From a bacterium HR17 (GTDB lineage: Bacteria; Armatimonadota; Fervidibacteria; Fervidibacterales; Fervidibacteraceae), in assembly GCA_002898575.1 (NCBI GenBank), contig BEHT01000023.1, forward strand, positions 1-56,452: a DNA stretch of 56,452 bases, read 5' to 3'. Positions 3,708-42,683 of this stretch are shown here, one piece after another. Positions within the stretch are counted from its first letter, which is position 1. Each line of letters opens with the position of its first letter. The notes below the pieces were generated by a model, which was not told the origin of the DNA, ran no database searches, and saw only the letters and a program-made list of their open reading frames with translations. The translations under genes and the position numbers were made by a program.

Positions 3708-5105
3708 CTAAACCAGCGACCCCAGCTTCTCCCGCAAGTGGCGCAAGACTTTTTCCTTGGGGTCTACGCGTTTGCGGTCGTTCCCGTCCCCTTGCGCCAT
3801 CTCTTCTGCCAACGCCTTCAGCGTCTTGCGTTCAGTGTTCATGGAACTGACATAGGCACAGAAGTCACCGCACATCGTGCAGACGCCTTTCTCGTAGTCT
3901 TCGCTCATCAGACGGTATTCGCGGGCTTTGTCGGGGTCAATAGCGAGGGCGAACATCGTCTCCCAATCCAGTCGGTAACGGGCTTTGGACATCTCCAAGT
4001 TGCGCTCCCACGCACCCTTTACACCTTTAGCGATGTCACCCGAATGGGCAGCGATGCGCGTCGCGATGATGCCCTGCCGCACATCTTCCGGATCGGGCAA
4101 TCGCAAATGTTCCGCGGGCGTGATGTAGCAGAGAAAGTCGGCGCCGGCTGCTGCGGCGATCGCGCCGCCGATCGCCCCCGTGATGTGGTCATAGCCTGCG
4201 CCGATGTCGCAAGTCAGTGGACCCAGCACATAAATGGGCGCACCGTAGCAAAGGCGTTTCATCATCTTGATGTGGGCGTCAATGTGATGGATGGGCACAT
4301 GCCCTGGACCTTCAATCATCACTTGCACACCGGCGTCCCATGCCCGCAAAGTCAGTTCGCCCAGCACGAAGTTCTCAAACCACTGGGCGGCATCGCCGGC
4401 ATCGGCGATGGCGCCAGGGCGCAGCCCATCACCGAGGCTGATGGTCACATCGTATTTGGCGCAGATGTCCAGCAAGCGGTCAAACTGCTCATAGAGCGGG
4501 TTCTCCGCCCGATGGTGTGCCATCCAGTGCGCCAACAACGACCCGCCCCGGGAGACCATCCCACAAGTGCGATTTTGCTGGACAAAAATGCGCACCGCTT
4601 CCCGTGTGACGCCACAGTGGAGCGTCATATAGTCCACACCCTGCCGGGCTTGGCGCTCAATGACCTCAAACAGGTGTTCAGGGTCCATCTCGGTGATGGA
4701 CTTGCCTTCCCGCAGCAACTCCCATGCGACTTGGTAAATCGGCACAGTGCCCAGTGGCTTGCGCCATCGGTTCAAAATCGTCACGCGGATAAAGTCCAAA
4801 TCGCCGCCGGTGCTCAAGTCCATGATGGTGTCAGCGCCGTAGCGCTCGCACACCTCCACCTTAAGCAGTTCCTCGTCCAAGTCCACATGGTCGGGGGAAG
4901 TGCCAATGTTGGCGTTGACCTTCGTCCGCAACCCTTCGCCGATGCCAATCGGGTAGTAGTTGGGATGGTTGATGTTGCGTGGGATGACGACCCGCCCCTT
5001 GGCAATTTGCTCCCGCAGCCACTCCGCATCCACGCCTTCGTCTTGGGCGACGATGCGCATCTCTTCGGTAACGATGCCTTGTCGTGCCGCTTGCATCTGC
5101 GTCAT
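3708..5105 (-). CDS. thiC: Phosphomethylpyrimidine synthase ThiC
   Basis: Radical-SAM enzyme converting aminoimidazole ribotide to HMP-phosphate in thiamin synthesis. 465 aa, the length of the short ThiC form without the long N-terminal domain. The C-terminal CTMCGDFC (about 409-416) gives the CX2CX4C cluster site typical of ThiC. The ATG at 5105 is chosen because GAGGAGG lies just upstream; an in-frame start at 5147 has none. It stands alone: no thi genes are adjacent. I looked for a TPP riboswitch upstream and found none of the conserved thi-box elements, unusual for thiC. Confidence 0.97.
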
Positions 5106-5321
5106 CGTGCGTCGCCTCCTCAATCTCAATTGGTTTTTCAGTGGCACACCCTTCCGTGAAAGGCAGCCGTGCGTCTGTCACGACCGCCGACAGCGATGGC
5201 GGTCGGCGTTTCTCAATTGTGCAACGGGCAGCGTTCAACTGACGCTCGTCGCTTTCGGCATGCGGTTGGGTGCCAATCTCTTTCCTGCATGCTTTGTTGA
5301 GTTTTCCTTTCAGCGGTGCCT
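5106..5321 (-). other. thiC upstream region with hairpin
   Basis: A 216-base non-coding stretch. It has an inverted repeat GACCGCC/GGCGGTC around 5182-5207 that could form a 7-bp hairpin in the leader. No TPP aptamer and no convincing promoter hexamers were recognised. The rest shows nothing I can name. Confidence 0.4.
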
Positions 5322-5924
5322 CGGAGGGCGCGTCTCCTGACGCGCCGAGATGTGGCGGCTCAGGAGAGCCGCTCTCCGAGCGAACCTTCAACATTTGGAG
5401 GGCGCATCTCCCGATGCGCCATTTTTCGGCGGCTCAGGAGAGCCGCCCTCCGAGAAAACCTTCAACATTCGGAGGGCGCATCTCCCGATGCGCCGCTTCT
5501 CGGCGGCTCAAAAGAGCCGCCCTCCGAGCGAACCTTCAACATTTGGAGGGCGCATCTCCCGATGCGCCATTTTTCGGCGGCTCAGGAGAGCCGCCCTCCG
5601 AGCGAACCTTCAACATTTGGAGGGCGCATCTCCCGATGCGCCGCTTCTCGGCGGCTCAAAAGAGCCGCCCTCCGAGCGAACCTTCAACATTCGGAGGGCG
5701 CATCTCCCGATGCGCCATTTTTCGGCGGCTCAGAGAGCCGCCCTCCGAGAAAACCTTCAACATTCGGAGGGCGCATCTCCCGATGCGCCGCTTCTCGGCG
5801 GCTCAAAAGAGCCGCCCTCCGAGCGAACCTTCAACATTTGGAGGGCGCGTCTTCTGACGCGCCGAGATGTGGTGGCTCAAAGAGCCGCCCTCCGAAGAGG
5901 CGCTCTCCGAGAGGCACCCTCCGA
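5322..5924. repeat. Tandem array of eight two-hairpin repeats, ~74-bp period
   Basis: Eight units start at about 5323, 5397, 5471, 5545, 5619, 5693, 5766 and 5840. Each unit has an outer GGAGG/CCTCC stem, an arm GGCGCATC-N4-GATGCGCC (or GGCGCGTC-N4-GACGCGCC), a linker of about 7-8 bases, and an arm GGCGGCTC-N3/4-GAGCCGCC. Units are joined by a conserved CGAACCTTCAACATT-like spacer. Linkers alternate: 2, 4 and 6 have ATTTTTC, 3, 5 and 7 have GCTTCTC, while 1 and 8 share GAGATGT. All three plus frames stay open through the array, but the translations are only the repeat, so I call no gene here. It lies between the 3' end of metG and the leader of thiC. Confidence 0.95.
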
Positions 5925-6131
5925 CCGAACCTCATTATTCAACACTAAACCGATGGCTGCTCAATTGACAGTGACGAAAAACAGCGAGTTGCTCGGTGAG
6001 CGACAAAGGCTTCCGCCGAGTTGGCGGGCAAGAAAAGCGCTTTCAGCAGCGGTGGGGCACCTCAGAGGGTTAGCGAAAAGCCCAGCAGCCCATCGTAACG
6101 CCGCTGGTAACACGCAGGAACCGTCTTGGGT
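5925..6131. other. Intergenic sequence with no recognisable feature
   Basis: About 207 bases between the repeat array and the 3' end of metG. I see no ORF with a ribosome site, no tRNA cloverleaf and no terminator with a T-tract. Confidence 0.5.
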
Positions 6132-7925
6132 TCACCCGCTCGGCTTGCCCAACTTTGCCCGTTCTTCCTCAGCAACTTTCTCGTCCAGTTTGGCGAACAG
6201 CGGGGCGATGTCCCGCAACGGTTGCCCTGGAGGTAGCGCGCTCGGTTGCCATTGCGGTGCCCCCCTTGCGGGACGATAACGCAAAACCCAATGCGTGCGG
6301 GTCGTCTCTGCGATCTCTTGCACTGCGAACTCGCCGACGAGGTTGCCGTCGTAACCGAGCATGTGATGCAACCGTTCGCAGGTGAAGGGCATGAAGGGTG
6401 TCAGCATCACTTTCAGCGTGTCAATTGCCCGCAGCGTCACATAGCAAACGGTGGCGGTGCGCTCCTTATCGGTCTTGATCGTTTGCCACGGTTGTTGTTC
6501 GTCCCAGTAGCGGTTGAGCGTTCGCACGAACTCCATCGCTTCCGCCAGCGCCCGCTTGAATTTGCAGGTGCTCAGTAGTTGATCTACGGTCATCAGCGTT
6601 TCTTCGGCATGGCGTTCAACGGCGCGGTCGCGGTCGGTCAGTGCCGACGGGAACGGCACGCGCCCGTCAAAGTTACGGGCGGTGAAGGTCAAAGCGCGAT
6701 GGACTAAGTTGCCCCACCAACCGACGAGTTCATCGTTGTTGCGTCGGACAAAATCCGCCCAAGTGAATTCGGTGTCGGCGGTCTCAGGCGCGATGGCGGT
6801 CAGGTAGTAACGGAACGCGTCAGGGTTGAAACGCGTTGCGACATCGTGCGCCCATACCGCCCAGTGGCGGGAGGTGGAAAACTTATCGCCCTCAAGGTTC
6901 AAAAACTCGTTGGCGGGCACATCGTAAGGCAAGACAAAAGTGACGGCACCGTCGTCTTCACTCAACCGTTCCGCGCCCATCAGTTCGGCAGGCCAAATGA
7001 GCGTGTGGAACGGGATGTTGTCTTTGCCGATGAAGTAATAACTGCGGGTCGCTGGGTCATACCAAAACACCTTCCACTCATCGCCCGTCCCGCGTCCATC
7101 GGCGCGCTGAAGGCGCGCCCACTCAATCGTGCCCGACAGGTAGCCGATGACGGCTTCAAACCAGACATAGAGCACTTTGCCCTCAAAGCCCGCGACAGGG
7201 ACGGGGATGCCCCAGTCCAAGTCGCGGGTGATGGGGCGGGGCTGTAACCCCTGCGCCAAATAGTTGTGGGTGAAACGGTAGACATTCGGGCGCCAAAGGG
7301 GCTCGTGCTCGGCGACATAGCGTCGGAGCCGTTCCTCAAAGGCGGGCAGGTTCAGGAAAAAGTGTTCCGTCTCCCGCAGGACAGGGGTCGTTCCGTCCAG
7401 TAAACTTTTGGGGTTGAGCAGTTGTGTCGGCTCCAGCAGTGCCCCGCACTTTTCGCATTGGTCGCCCCGTGCCCGTTCGTAACCGCAGTGGGGGCAAATG
7501 CCGATGACATACCGATCGGGTAAAAACCGTCGCGACGCCTCGGAATACATCTGCAGCTGCTTCTGCGTGATGAGGTAGCCCCGCTCTTTCAGCCGCAGGA
7601 ACATCGTTTGCGCAATGCGGTGATGGTTTTCGGTGTCGGTGTGGGTGTAAAGGTCAAAGGAGATGGCGAACTGCTGCCAGACTTGCAAAAAGAGCCGATG
7701 GTAGCGCTCAAACAGGTCGCGCGGCGACACGCCCTCTTTGTCTGCTTGGAGCGTGATGGGCGCGCCGTGTGCGTCCGAGCCCGAAATCATGACGACCTCG
7801 TTGCCCTTGAGCCGATGGTAGCGGGCGAAAATGTCGGCAGGCAAGTAAGCGCCCGCGATGTGTCCCAGGTGCAGCGGTCCGTTGGCGTAAGGCCAAGCGA
7901 CCCCGATGAAGATGCGTTCCGGCAT
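6132..7925 (-). CDS. metG: Methionyl-tRNA synthetase
   Basis: Class I aminoacyl-tRNA synthetase charging tRNA-Met. 597 aa. HLGH at 19-22 is the HIGH motif; KFSTS at 348-352 replaces KMSKS, a form seen in the four-cysteine MetRS group. A zinc knuckle CPHC (144-147) with CEKC (157-160) lies in the connective domain. The anticodon-binding helical domain follows (about 390-530). The C-terminal tRNA-binding (Arc1/Trbp111-like) domain of many bacterial MetRS is absent. ATG has AAGGAGG upstream. Divergent from the UPF0182 gene. Confidence 0.97.
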   Translation of the reverse strand: MPERIFIGVAWPYANGPLHLGHIAGAYLPADIFARYHRLKGNEVVMISGSDAHGAPITLQADKEGVSPRDLFERYHRLFLQVWQQFAISFDLYTHTDTENHHRIAQTMFLRLKERGYLITQKQLQMYSEASRRFLPDRYVIGICPHCGYERARGDQCEKCGALLEPTQLLNPKSLLDGTTPVLRETEHFFLNLPAFEERLRRYVAEHEPLWRPNVYRFTHNYLAQGLQPRPITRDLDWGIPVPVAGFEGKVLYVWFEAVIGYLSGTIEWARLQRADGRGTGDEWKVFWYDPATRSYYFIGKDNIPFHTLIWPAELMGAERLSEDDGAVTFVLPYDVPANEFLNLEGDKFSTSRHWAVWAHDVATRFNPDAFRYYLTAIAPETADTEFTWADFVRRNNDELVGWWGNLVHRALTFTARNFDGRVPFPSALTDRDRAVERHAEETLMTVDQLLSTCKFKRALAEAMEFVRTLNRYWDEQQPWQTIKTDKERTATVCYVTLRAIDTLKVMLTPFMPFTCERLHHMLGYDGNLVGEFAVQEIAETTRTHWVLRYRPARGAPQWQPSALPPGQPLRDIAPLFAKLDEKVAEEERAKLGKPSG

Positions 7926-12703: not shown

Positions 12704-13648
12704 TCACTTGTAAGACGGCGCATAGTTGCCGCTGACCTTCCAATGCAGCAGGTTGCGGTTGGACTGTCCGGCAGCCGCTCGCTGCTGAATGGCGGAAGGC
12801 GTCCACGGCCAAGGCATCGTTTGCCGACGCGGCATGGCTTTGACATGCCCGTCTACAAAGGTAAAGTTCGTTTGTAAAGCGTGGGCGCCGATGGTCATCT
12901 GCGCTTGGTTAGGCTTACCGGAGCACCAAGTGAAAACGAAGTAGTTAGGGGCGTCAGGCCAATTAGGGTCGGCGATGTTGCGGACATCCCAGCGCCAGTA
13001 GGCAAAACCCTCGCTGTAACTGGCGGTCGTCCAAAGTTCAAAGATGGCGATGGTGTCGCCTGGGGCACCGATTTCGGGAAGACCTTTGGAGCGTACTTCC
13101 CAATCAGCGGTGTTGGTGGAGTAGGCATGTAGCCCGAAAGTCGCAGTGCCCGAAGGACCGTCGTCCCAATTGCTCTGGAAGTTGGTGAACGAGTAACTGA
13201 TGGGGTAACCGAAGGAAGCGTCGCAATCGTCGCGAGGGATGGAATCGCTGGGACATTTCCAGATGGCATCGTTGCGAATGTAGGCAGCAAGCATATCTTG
13301 GGCACCAAAAGCCCACTTGACACCTTGAGGGACCCACCGACCGCGGATGCGATTGAGGAGTTCATCGTAGTCCTGCACATATTGGGCTTGCGCCATCGCG
13401 ACATTCCGCAGGTTACTGAGACAGCTCGCCTGTCGCGCCTTTTCCCGCGCTTGGGCGAACACGGGGAACAAGATCGCCGCCAGGATGGCGATAATCGCAA
13501 TCACCACGAGCAACTCAATGAGGGTGAAGCCCGTATCAAGGTGCGAGCGAGCGCTTCGGAGGGCGGCTCTCTTGAGCCGCCGCAAAAAAGTGAAGCCCGC
13601 ATCAAGGTGCAAGCGAGAGCAGCGACGACACTTTTGAGACCGACGCAT
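12704..13648 (-). CDS. Type IV/II prepilin, H-X9-DG family, with expanded leader
   Basis: 314 aa. The prepilin cleavage and helix motif [20 protein letters not shown] starts at residue 40, and the C-terminal H-X9-DG signature is present ('[16 protein letters not shown]'). Such DUF1559-like pseudopilins abound in Planctomycetes and Armatimonadota. The ATG at 13648 has GGGAGGTG upstream. Odd: the leader is 40 residues instead of about 10-18 because half a palindromic repeat and a 28-bp duplication are inserted in frame. A second, imperfect 'HLDAGFTF' motif results at 14-21. Third in a minus-strand operon after a regulator and another prepilin. Confidence 0.93.
13524..13617. repeat. 28-bp direct repeats flanking a half repeat unit
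   Basis: 13524-13551 and 13590-13617 match at 26 of 28 positions. Between them (13552-13589) lies one arm of the dispersed repeat: CGGAGGGCGGCTC, loop, GAGCCGCC, then an A-rich end. Insert plus one flank is 66 bp, exactly 22 codons, so the prepilin frame survives. Confidence 0.85.
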
Positions 13649-13699: not shown

Positions 13700-14491
13700 C
13701 TACCGCCACATTTGCCACAGTTCGGGATATTGCGACGGGCTAAGGCTGAGGGTGTTACAAGCCGGCGTCGTTACGCGCGGGTCAGCAGGGGCGCAACGAA
13801 CGCCGTAAACCTTCTCCATCGGCAGCGCCTTCACATGCCCGTCGCAGAAGGTCGTATTGACCATCTCTACATGGCGCGGTTCAGGCGCTGAGTGGAAAGC
13901 GGTAATGTTGCCACTCACTTGGTTGTTGCCAAAGGGTGTCGTCACATGGTTGAGATAGATGCCTGATTGGTCATAGAGGGGACGAGAAGATGTGCCTGTC
14001 GGAACAGCGTCCATAAAAGCGACATGGTTAGCGGGTTCTTGGATGACGGCTAAATTGGAACCGACGCCGGGCACAGGATACGCCATCCCGTAACCGATGC
14101 GCCCTTCAATTTCCAAAAACCGCTTTATGTGGCAGGGGTTGGTGGAAACGAGACGCTTGGCATCCGGGCATTGGCTGTATTGGGTGTTGCGGGAGTAAGG
14201 CTGCAACAGCCCCAAGTAGCCCATGGAGACGAAAACGGTGCCGCCGCATTCGGGAATGTTCACCCAAACATTTTGCTGGTAAGGCGGGAAGTTTTCGTCG
14301 TAGTCCTGCACATACTGCATCGCGGCTAAGCCGATCTGACGCAGGTTGGACAGGCACATCGTTTGACGGGCCTTGGCTCGGGCGCGGCTGAACACGGGGA
14401 ACAAGATCGCCGCCAAGATGGCGATGATCGCAATCACCACGAGCAACTCAATGAGGGTAAACGCCCTAGACGGCTTGTTGAGACGAGACAT
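13700..14491 (-). CDS. Type IV/II prepilin, H-X9-DG family
   Basis: 263 aa. A short leader ([10 protein letters not shown]) precedes [20 protein letters not shown]. The residue before the cleavage site is Ala instead of the usual Gly, which may slow or alter processing. The C-terminal H-X9-DG motif is present ([16 protein letters not shown]). ATG at 14491 is chosen because GGAGGTG lies six bases upstream. Its start overlaps the 3' end of the regulator gene by 26 bases, so the two are likely coupled. It shares layout with the next prepilin but the middle regions differ. Confidence 0.92.
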
Positions 14492-15605
14492 AGCGAACAC
14501 CTCCATCAGAGGTTAGGGGCGAGGTGACGCTCGCCCGGATGACTAACTCCACCGACAGTTTCTCTACTGCCGGCTGGATTTGCCCTTCCAGCAACGAGAG
14601 CAACTTGAAGACTGCCCGCCGCCCCAATTCCACCAGCGGTTGCCGCACCGTCGTCAAAGGTGGCTCCAAATAACTCGCCGACGGCGGGTCATCAAAGGCG
14701 ACAAGGGAGAGGTCTTCCGGCACACGCCATCCCTCGTGTTTGATCAAGCGCAGTGCTTCCGCCGCCAAGTAGTAGCCTGCCGCAAACAGCGCTGTCGGGC
14801 GAACCTTGCTCCTTAAAAGAGCGCGTAACCGTTCCTGAACCGTTGGAGGGAGAGCGGAAGGCGATTCGGACTCTATCAGCCACTCTGGTGGCACGGACAA
14901 GCCGTGTTCTTCCATCGCTGCGAGGAATCCGTTCCACCGGTCGCGGCTGTTGGGGGCGATTCGGCGCCCTGCCAGCAAGGCGATACGGCGGTGCCCCATA
15001 CCGACGAGGAAGTCCACAACCTGCCGGGCAGCGGCGAGGTTGTCGGTGTCCACGCAGGGAAACGCGGCGTCTTGCCACGATGCGCCGATGACGACGAAGG
15101 GCACGCCTGCCGTCCACCATTGCTCCAAGACAGGGCGAGCGTCCTCAAAAGGGGCGAACACTAACAACGCCCGTGAGGTCAGCACTTCTGGCGGGATGAC
15201 GCGCAATTGATCAAAGCCCATCGTCCAAAACTGCACCAAGCAACCCGTTTCAGCCAACACGCTCAAAATGCCCTGCAAAATCGGACCATAGTAAATGTTC
15301 TGGGTCGTCAAAGTTGCGACCTCGGCAAGCGGGAAGACCAAGATAAGGGAGTGACGGGGTGCCGGAGCGGAAGGGGTCTTGAGGACGAAAGTCCCTTTGC
15401 CGATCAGACGGGTGATGACGCCCTCGCGTTCTAACTCCTTCAGCGCCCGATTGACCGTCATTTGGCTGACCCGCAGCCGCTGTGCCCACTCCCGTTCAGA
15501 CGGCAAAGGCGCACCAATACCCAGCCCGTTCTCGGCGATGAACTGACGGATAATAGTCTTGACCTGCTCAAAGCGCGGCACGCCGCTGTTCCAATTCACA
15601 CGCAC
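14466..15605 (-). CDS. GntR-type wHTH / LacI-type sensor transcriptional regulator
   Basis: About 379 aa. The N-terminus (about 5-70) is a GntR winged helix ('[19 protein letters not shown]', '[16 protein letters not shown]'). The rest is a LacI/GalR periplasmic-binding-like sensor ('[20 protein letters not shown]', '[20 protein letters not shown]'). This is the AraR-like architecture, which usually binds a sugar. The GTG at 15605 is preferred because the ORF start at 15641 lies inside a perfect palindrome; GTG at 15599 is also possible. First gene of the prepilin operon. Confidence 0.88.
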
Positions 15606-15627
15606 AGCCGTCCCGCCCTCTGTATCG

Positions 15628-15641
15628 GTGTTATATAACAC
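15628..15641. promoter_or_regulatory. 14-bp perfect palindrome, probable operator
   Basis: GTGTTATATAACAC is its own reverse complement. On the minus strand it overlaps a plausible -10 (TATATA, 17 bases after TTACCC), just before the regulator start. This suits autorepression by the GntR/LacI-type protein. Binding is inferred, not shown. Confidence 0.6.
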
Positions 15642-15842
15642 TGCATCAAAGCAAGGGTAATTGTGTCAGGGAGGCGGGGCGATGTCAAGGTCAACGGACG
15701 AGAGATTTTGATGAGGAAGCGGCGGACCGTCAGGCAGCGTTGATGCTTGCTTTTCCTTAAATTCCTTCTTATCTGCTGTGTGGGGCGCGGCTGCATGGCA
15801 TAAAAAGGCAGTGTTGAAACATCGGAAGTGCTGTGTTTTAGT
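15642..15842. other. Non-coding stretch between operator and repeat array
   Basis: About 200 bases of lower GC than the neighbours. I see only the possible -35 (TTACCC) of the regulator promoter; no ORF or RNA gene. Confidence 0.4.
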
Positions 15843-16053
15843 CGGAGGGCGGCTCTCTGAGCCGCCGAGAAGCGGCGCATCGGGAGACGCGCCCTCCGAA
15901 TGTTGAAGGCTTGCTCGGAGGGCGGCTCTCTGAGCCGCCGAGAAGCGGCGCATCAGGAGATGCGCCCTCCGAGTGTTGAAGGCGTGGTCGGAGGGCGGCT
16001 CTCTGAGCCGCCGCAGAGAGAGCAATCGGCGCGTCAAGAGACGCGCCCTCCGA
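15843..16053. repeat. Array of three two-hairpin repeats, 73-bp period
   Basis: Units start at 15843, 15916 and 15989. They are the same repeat as at 5.3 kb but inverted: CGGAGGGCGGCTC-TCT-GAGCCGCC arm first, then the GGCGCRTC arm, closing with CGCCCTCCGA. The first two linkers are GAGAAGC; the third is expanded (GCAGAGAGAGCAATC). The array lies between the divergent regulator and GlsB-type genes. Confidence 0.93.
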
Positions 16054-16090
16054 GTCGCTGCCGCAGGGCAAATTCAGGGGGTGTTGTGAG

Positions 16091-42020: not shown

Positions 42021-42060
42021 AGGCGTCGGATGACCCCTATCGTCCACGCCTTTTTGTCGC

Positions 42061-42402
42061 GACTGCTGTGTTGGGTAACAGGTTTTGGTCGGAGGGCGGC
42101 TCTCTGAGCCGCCAAACATTGGCGCGTCAGGAGACGCGCCCTCCGAACGGCAAACAAGGTAACTCTCGGAGGGCGGCTCTCTGAGCCGCCAAACATTGGC
42201 GCGTCAGGAGACGCGCCCTCCGAGATACTGCTGGAAGGAAAAATAGCAGTCGCGACAGCGCTTGCTTCCCGTTATCCGCAGAGACTTTTAGAGCGGATTC
42301 TTGTGGATTGCTGTGTTGGGTAACAGGTTTTGGTCGGAGGGCGGCTCTCTGAGCCGCCGAACATTGGCGCGTCAGGAGACACGCCCTCCGAACGGCAAAC
42401 AA
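42061..42402. repeat. Direct duplication of about 96 bp carrying a repeat unit
   Basis: 42061-42156 and 42306-42402 are nearly identical, with a shift of 245 bases. Both begin with TGCTGTGTTGGGTAACAGG and continue through one complete two-hairpin unit into AACGGCAAACAAG. About 80 bases of unique non-coding sequence (42225-42305) lie between. Confidence 0.85.
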
Positions 42403-42629
42403 GATGGCTCTCGGAGGGCGGCTCTCTGAGCCGCCAAACATTGGCGCGTCAGGAGACACGCCCTCCGAACGACAAACAAGATGGCTCTCGGAGGGCGGCT
42501 CTCTGAGCCGCCGAACATTGGCGCGTCAGGAGACACGCCCTCCGAACGACAAACAAGATGGCTCTCGGAGGGCGGCTCTCCTGAGCCGCCGAAGAAAGAG
42601 CGGCGCGTCAGGAGACGCGCCCTTCGGAG
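42090..42629. repeat. Six two-hairpin repeats between the fusA-like gene and rplN
   Basis: Units start at 42090, 42167, 42335, 42412, 42489 and 42566; the last four have an exact 77-base period. Same orientation as the 15.8-kb array. The first arm is GGCGGCTC-TCT-GAGCCGCC, the second GGCGCGTC-AGGA-GACGCGCC (one mismatch in units 3-5), joined by an AAACATT- or GAACATT-type linker, and separated by AACGGCAAACAAG-like spacers. Confidence 0.95.
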
Positions 42630-42635
42630 TTTTTT
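42566..42635 (+). terminator. Last repeat unit followed by T6, terminator-like
   Basis: The sixth unit folds as two arms on an outer stem (CTCGGAGGGCG with CGCCCTTCGGAG, one bulge) and runs straight into TTTTTT (42630-42635). It could end transcripts from the fusA-like gene or act as a partial terminator within the spc operon. The following rplN starts at 42684. Confidence 0.5.
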
Positions 42636-42683
42636 AATGAACGACAGCGACGGGGAGACCGAGTGGAAACGGAGGGACCGTTG

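Follow-up and report, generated by a model that had tools for sequence, protein, structure and literature searches.

Repeat arrays in the window

The window analysed here, of 56,452 nucleotides, is contig C23 of the 3.15-Mb assembly of bacterium HR17, which comprises 75 contigs and is 96% complete. The gap between metG and thiC holds an array of a structured repeat, the Y unit, and two further arrays lie upstream of a regulator gene and between fusA and rplN (Table 1). The earlier note had counted 17 full units in three arrays, and this count was borne out, with eight, three and six units, respectively. In array 1, the linkers alternate between GAAAAAT and GAGAAGC, yielding a two-unit higher-order repeat. 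No target duplication was recognisable at the flanks of element 1.

Table 1. Y-unit arrays, the elements that contain them and a solo hairpin in the window
Feature	Position	Strand	Description
Element 1	5290–5949	−	Between metG (6132–7925) and thiC (3708–5147); eight Y units; right end TGCTTTGTTGAGTTTTCC at 5290; left end decayed, TTTAGTGTTGAATAATGAGG (read on −) at 5930–5949
Array 1	5321–5895	−	Eight Y units, period 73–74; C arm first on − strand
Element 2	15829–16075	+	Divergent gap upstream of GntR/LacI-type regulator gene (14466–15641); end remnants around array, TGCTGTGTT at 15829 and GGGCAAATTCA at 16066
Array 2	15842–16053	+	Three Y units; linker longer in last
Element 3a	42056–42256	+	Two Y units (42089–42146, 42166–42223); ends at 42064–42248: left TGCTGTGTTGGGTAACAGG at 42064; right shortened, ...GGAAGGAAAAATAGCA at 42233–42248; direct repeat GTCGCGAC on both sides (42056–42063, 42249–42256)
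Element 3b	42309–42650	+	Left end TGCTGTGTTGGGTAACAGG at 42309; right end decayed; four Y units (42334–42391, 42411–42468, 42488–42545, 42565–42627)
Array 3	42089–42627		Six Y units of elements 3a and 3b, in fusA–rplN gap
Solo tagged hairpin without TIRs	13556–13581	+	Between two GTGAAGCCCGYATCAAGGTGCRAGCGAG copies, spacing 66 bp

Anatomy and folding of the Y unit

Each Y unit reads, in order, TCGGAG, hairpin C, a linker, hairpin D and CTCCGA, and spans 58 bp with a spacer of ~16 bp. Arm C is GGCGGCTC/GAGCCGCC and arm D is GGCGCRTC/GAYGCGCC, with the variants GGCGCATC/GATGCGCC or GGCGCGTC/GACGCGCC. The parts of the Y described in the earlier note, an outer stem carrying two arms, are all present; the stem, given there as GGAGG/CCTCC, is a 6-bp TCGGAG/CTCCGA. 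When folded as RNA, six of six single units tested were more stable than all 200 shuffles (z of −4.2 to −7.2). The minimum-energy fold was a Y only for the tested unit of array 1, and the tested units of arrays 2 and 3 yielded one long hairpin. The unit has this competing fold because arms C and D are near-inverted copies of each other. No Rfam family matched the window above its gathering score.

The compensatory change between CATC/GATG and CGTC/GACG, which the earlier note took to mean that pairing is selected or copied as a unit, is real. Within this genome, the evidence for such selection is weak and the covariation is muddied by many one-sided intermediates: at pair 6 of the D arm, a permissive unit set that includes some false units contained 102 GC, 78 AT, 27 AC and 23 GT pairs. 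Between genomes, covariation is present, with changes on both sides in 7 of 22 pairs and a score of 0.216 versus at most 0.072 in slid versions. Covariation of a DNA palindrome can reflect hairpin-DNA recognition, palindrome correction or RNA pairing alike.

Genome-wide abundance and array growth

Genome-wide, there are 759 copies of the decamer TCGGAGGGCG versus 4 of the reversed control, and 431 kb contained 232 tagged hairpins versus none in the reversed sequence. The Y repeat is therefore not a product of chance, and copies outside the window number in the hundreds. Cluster and TIR statistics were taken from 1.58 Mb of the 3.15 Mb, chosen in part because matches were present; gene calls in this sample were ORFs picked by codon usage and are approximate. 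All 99 Y units checked had their tags facing outward and combined one arm C with one arm D; CC and DD units never occurred. On the + strand, 68 of these read CD and 31 DC. The 1.58 Mb contained 83 clusters with 401 tags, and none of the clusters was of mixed orientation. Of the 83 clusters, 13 were located in predicted ORFs, though ~80% of the DNA is coding.

Units are more alike within arrays than between them (identity of 0.93 versus 0.81), as are linkers (0.83 versus 0.42) and spacers (0.79 versus 0.47). The commonest array periods are 73–79 bp. The abundance is particular to this genome: three other family members, whose genomes are 61–90% complete, contain 7–11 copies of the decamer. The fusA–rplN gap is short and without units in two relatives, G002 of the same genus and G001 of the same family. 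The same hairpin is carried by Candidatus Zipacnadia MAGs (Armatimonadota).

The Y units lie within an element with inverted ends

Alignment of the array flanks yielded a common left end, TGCTGTGTTGAATAATGGGGTTYGG, and a common right end, GGCANTGCYGAAAGGAAAATTCAACAAAGCA; most arrays are bordered by such conserved ends. The outer 13 bases of these are inverted repeats of each other, with the TIR TGCTKTGTTGAAT at both ends. The TIR pattern GCTNTGTTGAAT occurred 46 times versus 0 in the control. Ends were found by profile search; a loose regular expression allowing two mismatches gave hundreds of chance matches. The 1.58 Mb contained 70 TIR ends, 68 of which had an intact tag at most 160 bp inward; of the others, one had a degraded Y and one had none. 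Twenty-one elements with paired ends spanned 119–950 bp, 11 of them 119–136 bp. The basic element is thus ~133 bp with one Y, and longer copies contain from two to more than ten tandem Ys. Among 34 clusters with at least three hairpins, neither end was recognisable in 11 and one end in 9.

The sequences immediately outside the TIRs were compared as candidate target duplications. In the 21 elements, identity was maximal at exactly 9 bp, at 0.571 versus 0.286 in partner-shuffled pairs (z = 8.0); z fell to 3.5 at 8 bp and 1.0 at 10 bp, with values at background for 10–12 and 5–6 bp. The comparison on 22 elements yielded a z of 7.0. Examples of the duplications are CAGCCGCCC, AAAATGGGC, GATGGGCAC/GATGGGCGC and GTTGCGCCT/GTTGCGCCC; in the window, element 3a is flanked by GTCGCGAC on either side. 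A fixed-length target duplication is the signature of a DDE transposase; none is known to be made by HUH Y1 transposases such as RAYTs.

Judged by sequence, the Y units form the interior of an element that is bounded by TIRs and flanked by 9-bp target duplications, a context missed in the earlier note. With its TIRs, fixed 9-bp duplication and short length without a transposase gene, the element has the properties of a MITE. Rather than constituting a new, independent repeat family, the repeat is part of a mobile element specific to the species. The general type of this element is known; its REPIN-like core is unusual.

Solo hairpins were also observed. The one in the window is part of the leader of a pilin-like (N_methyl, DUF1559) ORF (12704–13648, − strand), where it keeps the reading frame. 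In total, four TIR-less solo hairpins were found between 19–31-bp direct repeats of host sequence (window 13524–13617, C2:40363, C1:75506 and C37:3546), so the hairpin can arise or move in another way too. The direct repeats are spaced 66, 66, 69 and 64 bp, respectively, and are not of the 9-bp insertion type. At 13407–13535 and 14340–14468, the leaders of adjacent pilin-like (N_methyl, DUF1559) genes contain a 129-nt repeat, with 81% identity between the copies.

Probable type of the transposase

IS903B has the ends GGCTTTGTTGAATAAATC and a 9-nt direct repeat (PMC10569121), and each consensus end of the element matches the IS903B end at 13 of 18 positions. Over the first 13 positions of the end of the IS903 group of the IS5 family, GGCTTTGTTGAAT, the right end of the element agrees at 12 and the left end at 11; the 9-bp duplication is also shared. 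The element differs from this group in its basic length of ~133 bp and in having no transposase gene inside. In two members of the phylum, genes for IS903-type transposases (PF13737) are bounded by GGCGTTGTTGCATAAAT and GGCTTTGTTGCATAAC, which have the same form as the ends of IS903B.

We sought a transposase with the ends of the element. In the 96%-complete, 75-contig assembly, none of the profiles PF01609, PF13737 and PF13586 yielded a match at E ≤ 0.001, so the partner transposase has been lost, is unassembled or is too diverged. An autonomous partner within the genome was rejected on the grounds that the 1.58 Mb contained no pair of TIRs enclosing a long interior with a transposase and the three Pfam profiles were negative. 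Viral contigs contained no exact match that would suggest a viral carrier. From the ends and the duplication length, the mover is most likely an IS903-type (IS5-family) DDE transposase.

Relation to REPINs and RAYTs

In its anatomy, the Y core corresponds to a REPIN, consisting of two tagged palindromes in inverted orientation, present in high copy number and mostly extragenic. The likeness to BIME/REP elements drawn in the earlier note holds for this anatomy, that of a REP dimer or REPIN, and for a related Y array beside a RAYT in the same order; it fails for the genome's own RAYTs. The tag of the Y unit is TCGGAG and not the GTAG or CGTC of REP type. The search for a RAYT that the earlier note had proposed yielded two genes, both with GTAG-type palindromes and neither with a TCGGAG copy nearby. 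The main RAYT (C41, L009:972–2132; NF047646, 122 bits) lies among GTAG-tagged palindromes. The latter have a similar two-hairpin layout, with 18 matches versus 3 in the reversed control. In the second, RAYT-like gene (C45, L195:1408–2034), a GTAG-tagged palindrome pair is inserted into the frame of the gene itself, where it separates conserved blocks. We rejected a RAYT-moved REP family in this genome, as its own RAYTs go with GTAG palindromes.

In other genomes, GGAG tags do occur beside RAYTs. In G013, a genome of the same order, the region immediately upstream of a RAYT contains three Y units in tandem; their D arm is GGCTCATCAGGAGATTCGCCCTCC, 22 of whose 24 bases are as here. A RAYT of G186 has an 85-nt GGAG-tagged Y on either side, and one of G006 is surrounded by hairpins with a TGGAG tag. 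G013 and G002 also contain single-Y elements with compensated arm changes (L105–L112, L120), and some of their Y cores lie in a second type of TIR element, whose ends, GCTCTWTACT...TTTGTTGGTG, are longer. In G131, a further member of the phylum (L114–L116), the second arm of the Y elements is an inverted copy of the first (TTGGAGCGCGGCTCTCCCGAGCCGC...), and TIRs are not evident.

Comparison with known composite repeats

The earlier note knew of no named family of this form. However, for REPINs, which are inverted doublets of REP sequences, a hairpin and a clover-shaped fold have both been described (PMC3116915), and head-to-head REP heterodimers have been described, some dimers lying inside palindromes (PMC3733652). 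The Y core resembles these in its pair of inverted, tagged palindromes with a short linker between them, its long-hairpin and clover folds, heterodimeric arms and tandem clusters; in some relatives, related Y arrays lie next to RAYTs. It differs in its TCGGAG tag, in not being linked to the RAYTs of its own genome and in being carried by a TIR element with 9-bp duplications.

The overall architecture has parallels among MITEs. The BOX elements of Streptococcus pneumoniae are MITE-like, with tandem core modules (boxB) between end modules, and their ends have been likened to ISSpn2 (PMC3049150). In architecture, as distinct from sequence, the element resembles BOX in having two end modules, a variable number of tandem structured cores, TIRs and target duplications. 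By contrast, its core is a double-hairpin, REPIN-like unit and its ends are of the IS903 type. BrickBuilt of Porphyromonas gingivalis is a MITE with an internal minisatellite, a 23-bp repeat without spacers, in 19 copies (PMC4596501). Both are intergenic and species-specific and contain a tandem array in a miniature inverted-repeat element, whereas here the repeat is a 58-bp Y with a ~16-bp spacer and the genome contains more than 700 tags. None of the open-licence papers searched described an element that combines a tandem REPIN-like core with a GGAG tag and ends of the IS903 type.

Alternative explanations

The Y unit might be a REPIN (BIME-like) family moved as single-stranded DNA by a RAYT that recognises tag and hairpin, the TIR-like flanks being no more than a favoured landing sequence. 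The outward-facing tags of the inverted pairs, the heterodimeric arms, the two folds and the tandem clusters fit REPINs (PMC3116915, PMC3733652), and some REP dimers do sit inside palindromes (PMC3733652). GGAG-tagged pairs flanking RAYTs in G013 and G186, and the GGAG-tagged hairpins around the RAYT of G006, point the same way. The 9-bp duplications outside the TIRs (z = 8.0) do not, as RAYTs are not known to duplicate their targets, and the palindromes associated with both RAYTs here are of the GTAG type. Moreover, GGAG hairpins were not enriched around 30 RAYT loci of the phylum, with 117 matches versus 128 in reversed sequence. We therefore regard this explanation as unlikely. A minisatellite, formed by slippage of a chance hairpin with shared flanks copied by recombination between arrays, would account for the homogeneity within arrays and for higher-order repeats. 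Nevertheless, TIR elements with a single unit and a constant length recur, with 9-bp duplications, at numerous unrelated sites, which requires transposition, and this origin is scarcely credible.

It is also quite improbable that the Y unit is a functional RNA, such as a terminator, mRNA stabiliser or riboregulator, selected at 3′ ends or in leaders. The strong folds and the two-sided changes in 7 of 22 pairs between genomes speak for one. Array 1 contains 8 terminator-like matches versus 1.8 expected; these arise because hairpins are present. Arrays of at least three tags run in the direction of flanking tandem genes in 18 cases and against it in 6, a bias that is suggestive only (binomial p ~0.02), as it rests on approximate gene calls and is one of several comparisons; copies with one or two tags are without such bias (9 to 11). 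Deviations in the stems comprise 71 GU and 57 AC and are equally common, so neither strand is favoured as RNA. The placement of clusters in tandem, divergent and convergent gaps (44/10/9) tracks the available intergenic DNA (173/52/43 kb), and the copies are recent and restricted to one species. On these grounds, a strand-specific RNA was rejected for want of GU/AC asymmetry, and a terminator or 3′-end element for its placement. Given that neither GU/AC asymmetry nor a preference for 3′ ends was found, a mobile, locally expanding element is favoured over a host RNA function, and there is no need for a host function to explain the Y-repeat pattern.

Proposed origin and significance

Overall, the Y units are probably the core of a non-autonomous MITE that was mobilised in trans by an IS903-type transposase, expanded in place and carries a REPIN-like cargo. 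As the sequence shows, the element was inserted by transposition that left the 9-bp target duplications; according to this model, it was most likely moved by an IS903-type (IS5-family) DDE transposase acting in trans and since lost or unsampled here. After insertion, the core would have multiplied in place to produce same-orientation arrays of ~74–79 bp periods. Replication slippage or unequal recombination is the putative mechanism, because the homogeneity within arrays and the higher-order repeat of array 1 fit it. From its relatives, the core appears to be a former REPIN, of the kind moved by RAYTs as two inverted tagged palindromes, that became MITE cargo. More tentatively, and at somewhat less than even probability in our judgement, the element may be a selfish hybrid in which a RAYT-dependent REPIN core was captured by a DDE-type MITE, thereby switching machinery, and which then acquired tandem expansion, biased to one orientation relative to neighbouring genes, as a second way of increasing.

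The element links two classes of small repeat that are usually kept apart, RAYT-dependent REP dimers and TIR-bounded MITEs. Covariation within a pair of palindromes does not suffice to make it a functional RNA. If the core is truly a captured REPIN, the element would be a natural case of a selfish palindrome changing transposases, the many arrays would lend themselves to testing how the expansion of hairpin-rich repeats relates to transcription, and the Y cores inside a different element in G013 and G002 would mean that REPIN capture occurred more than once.
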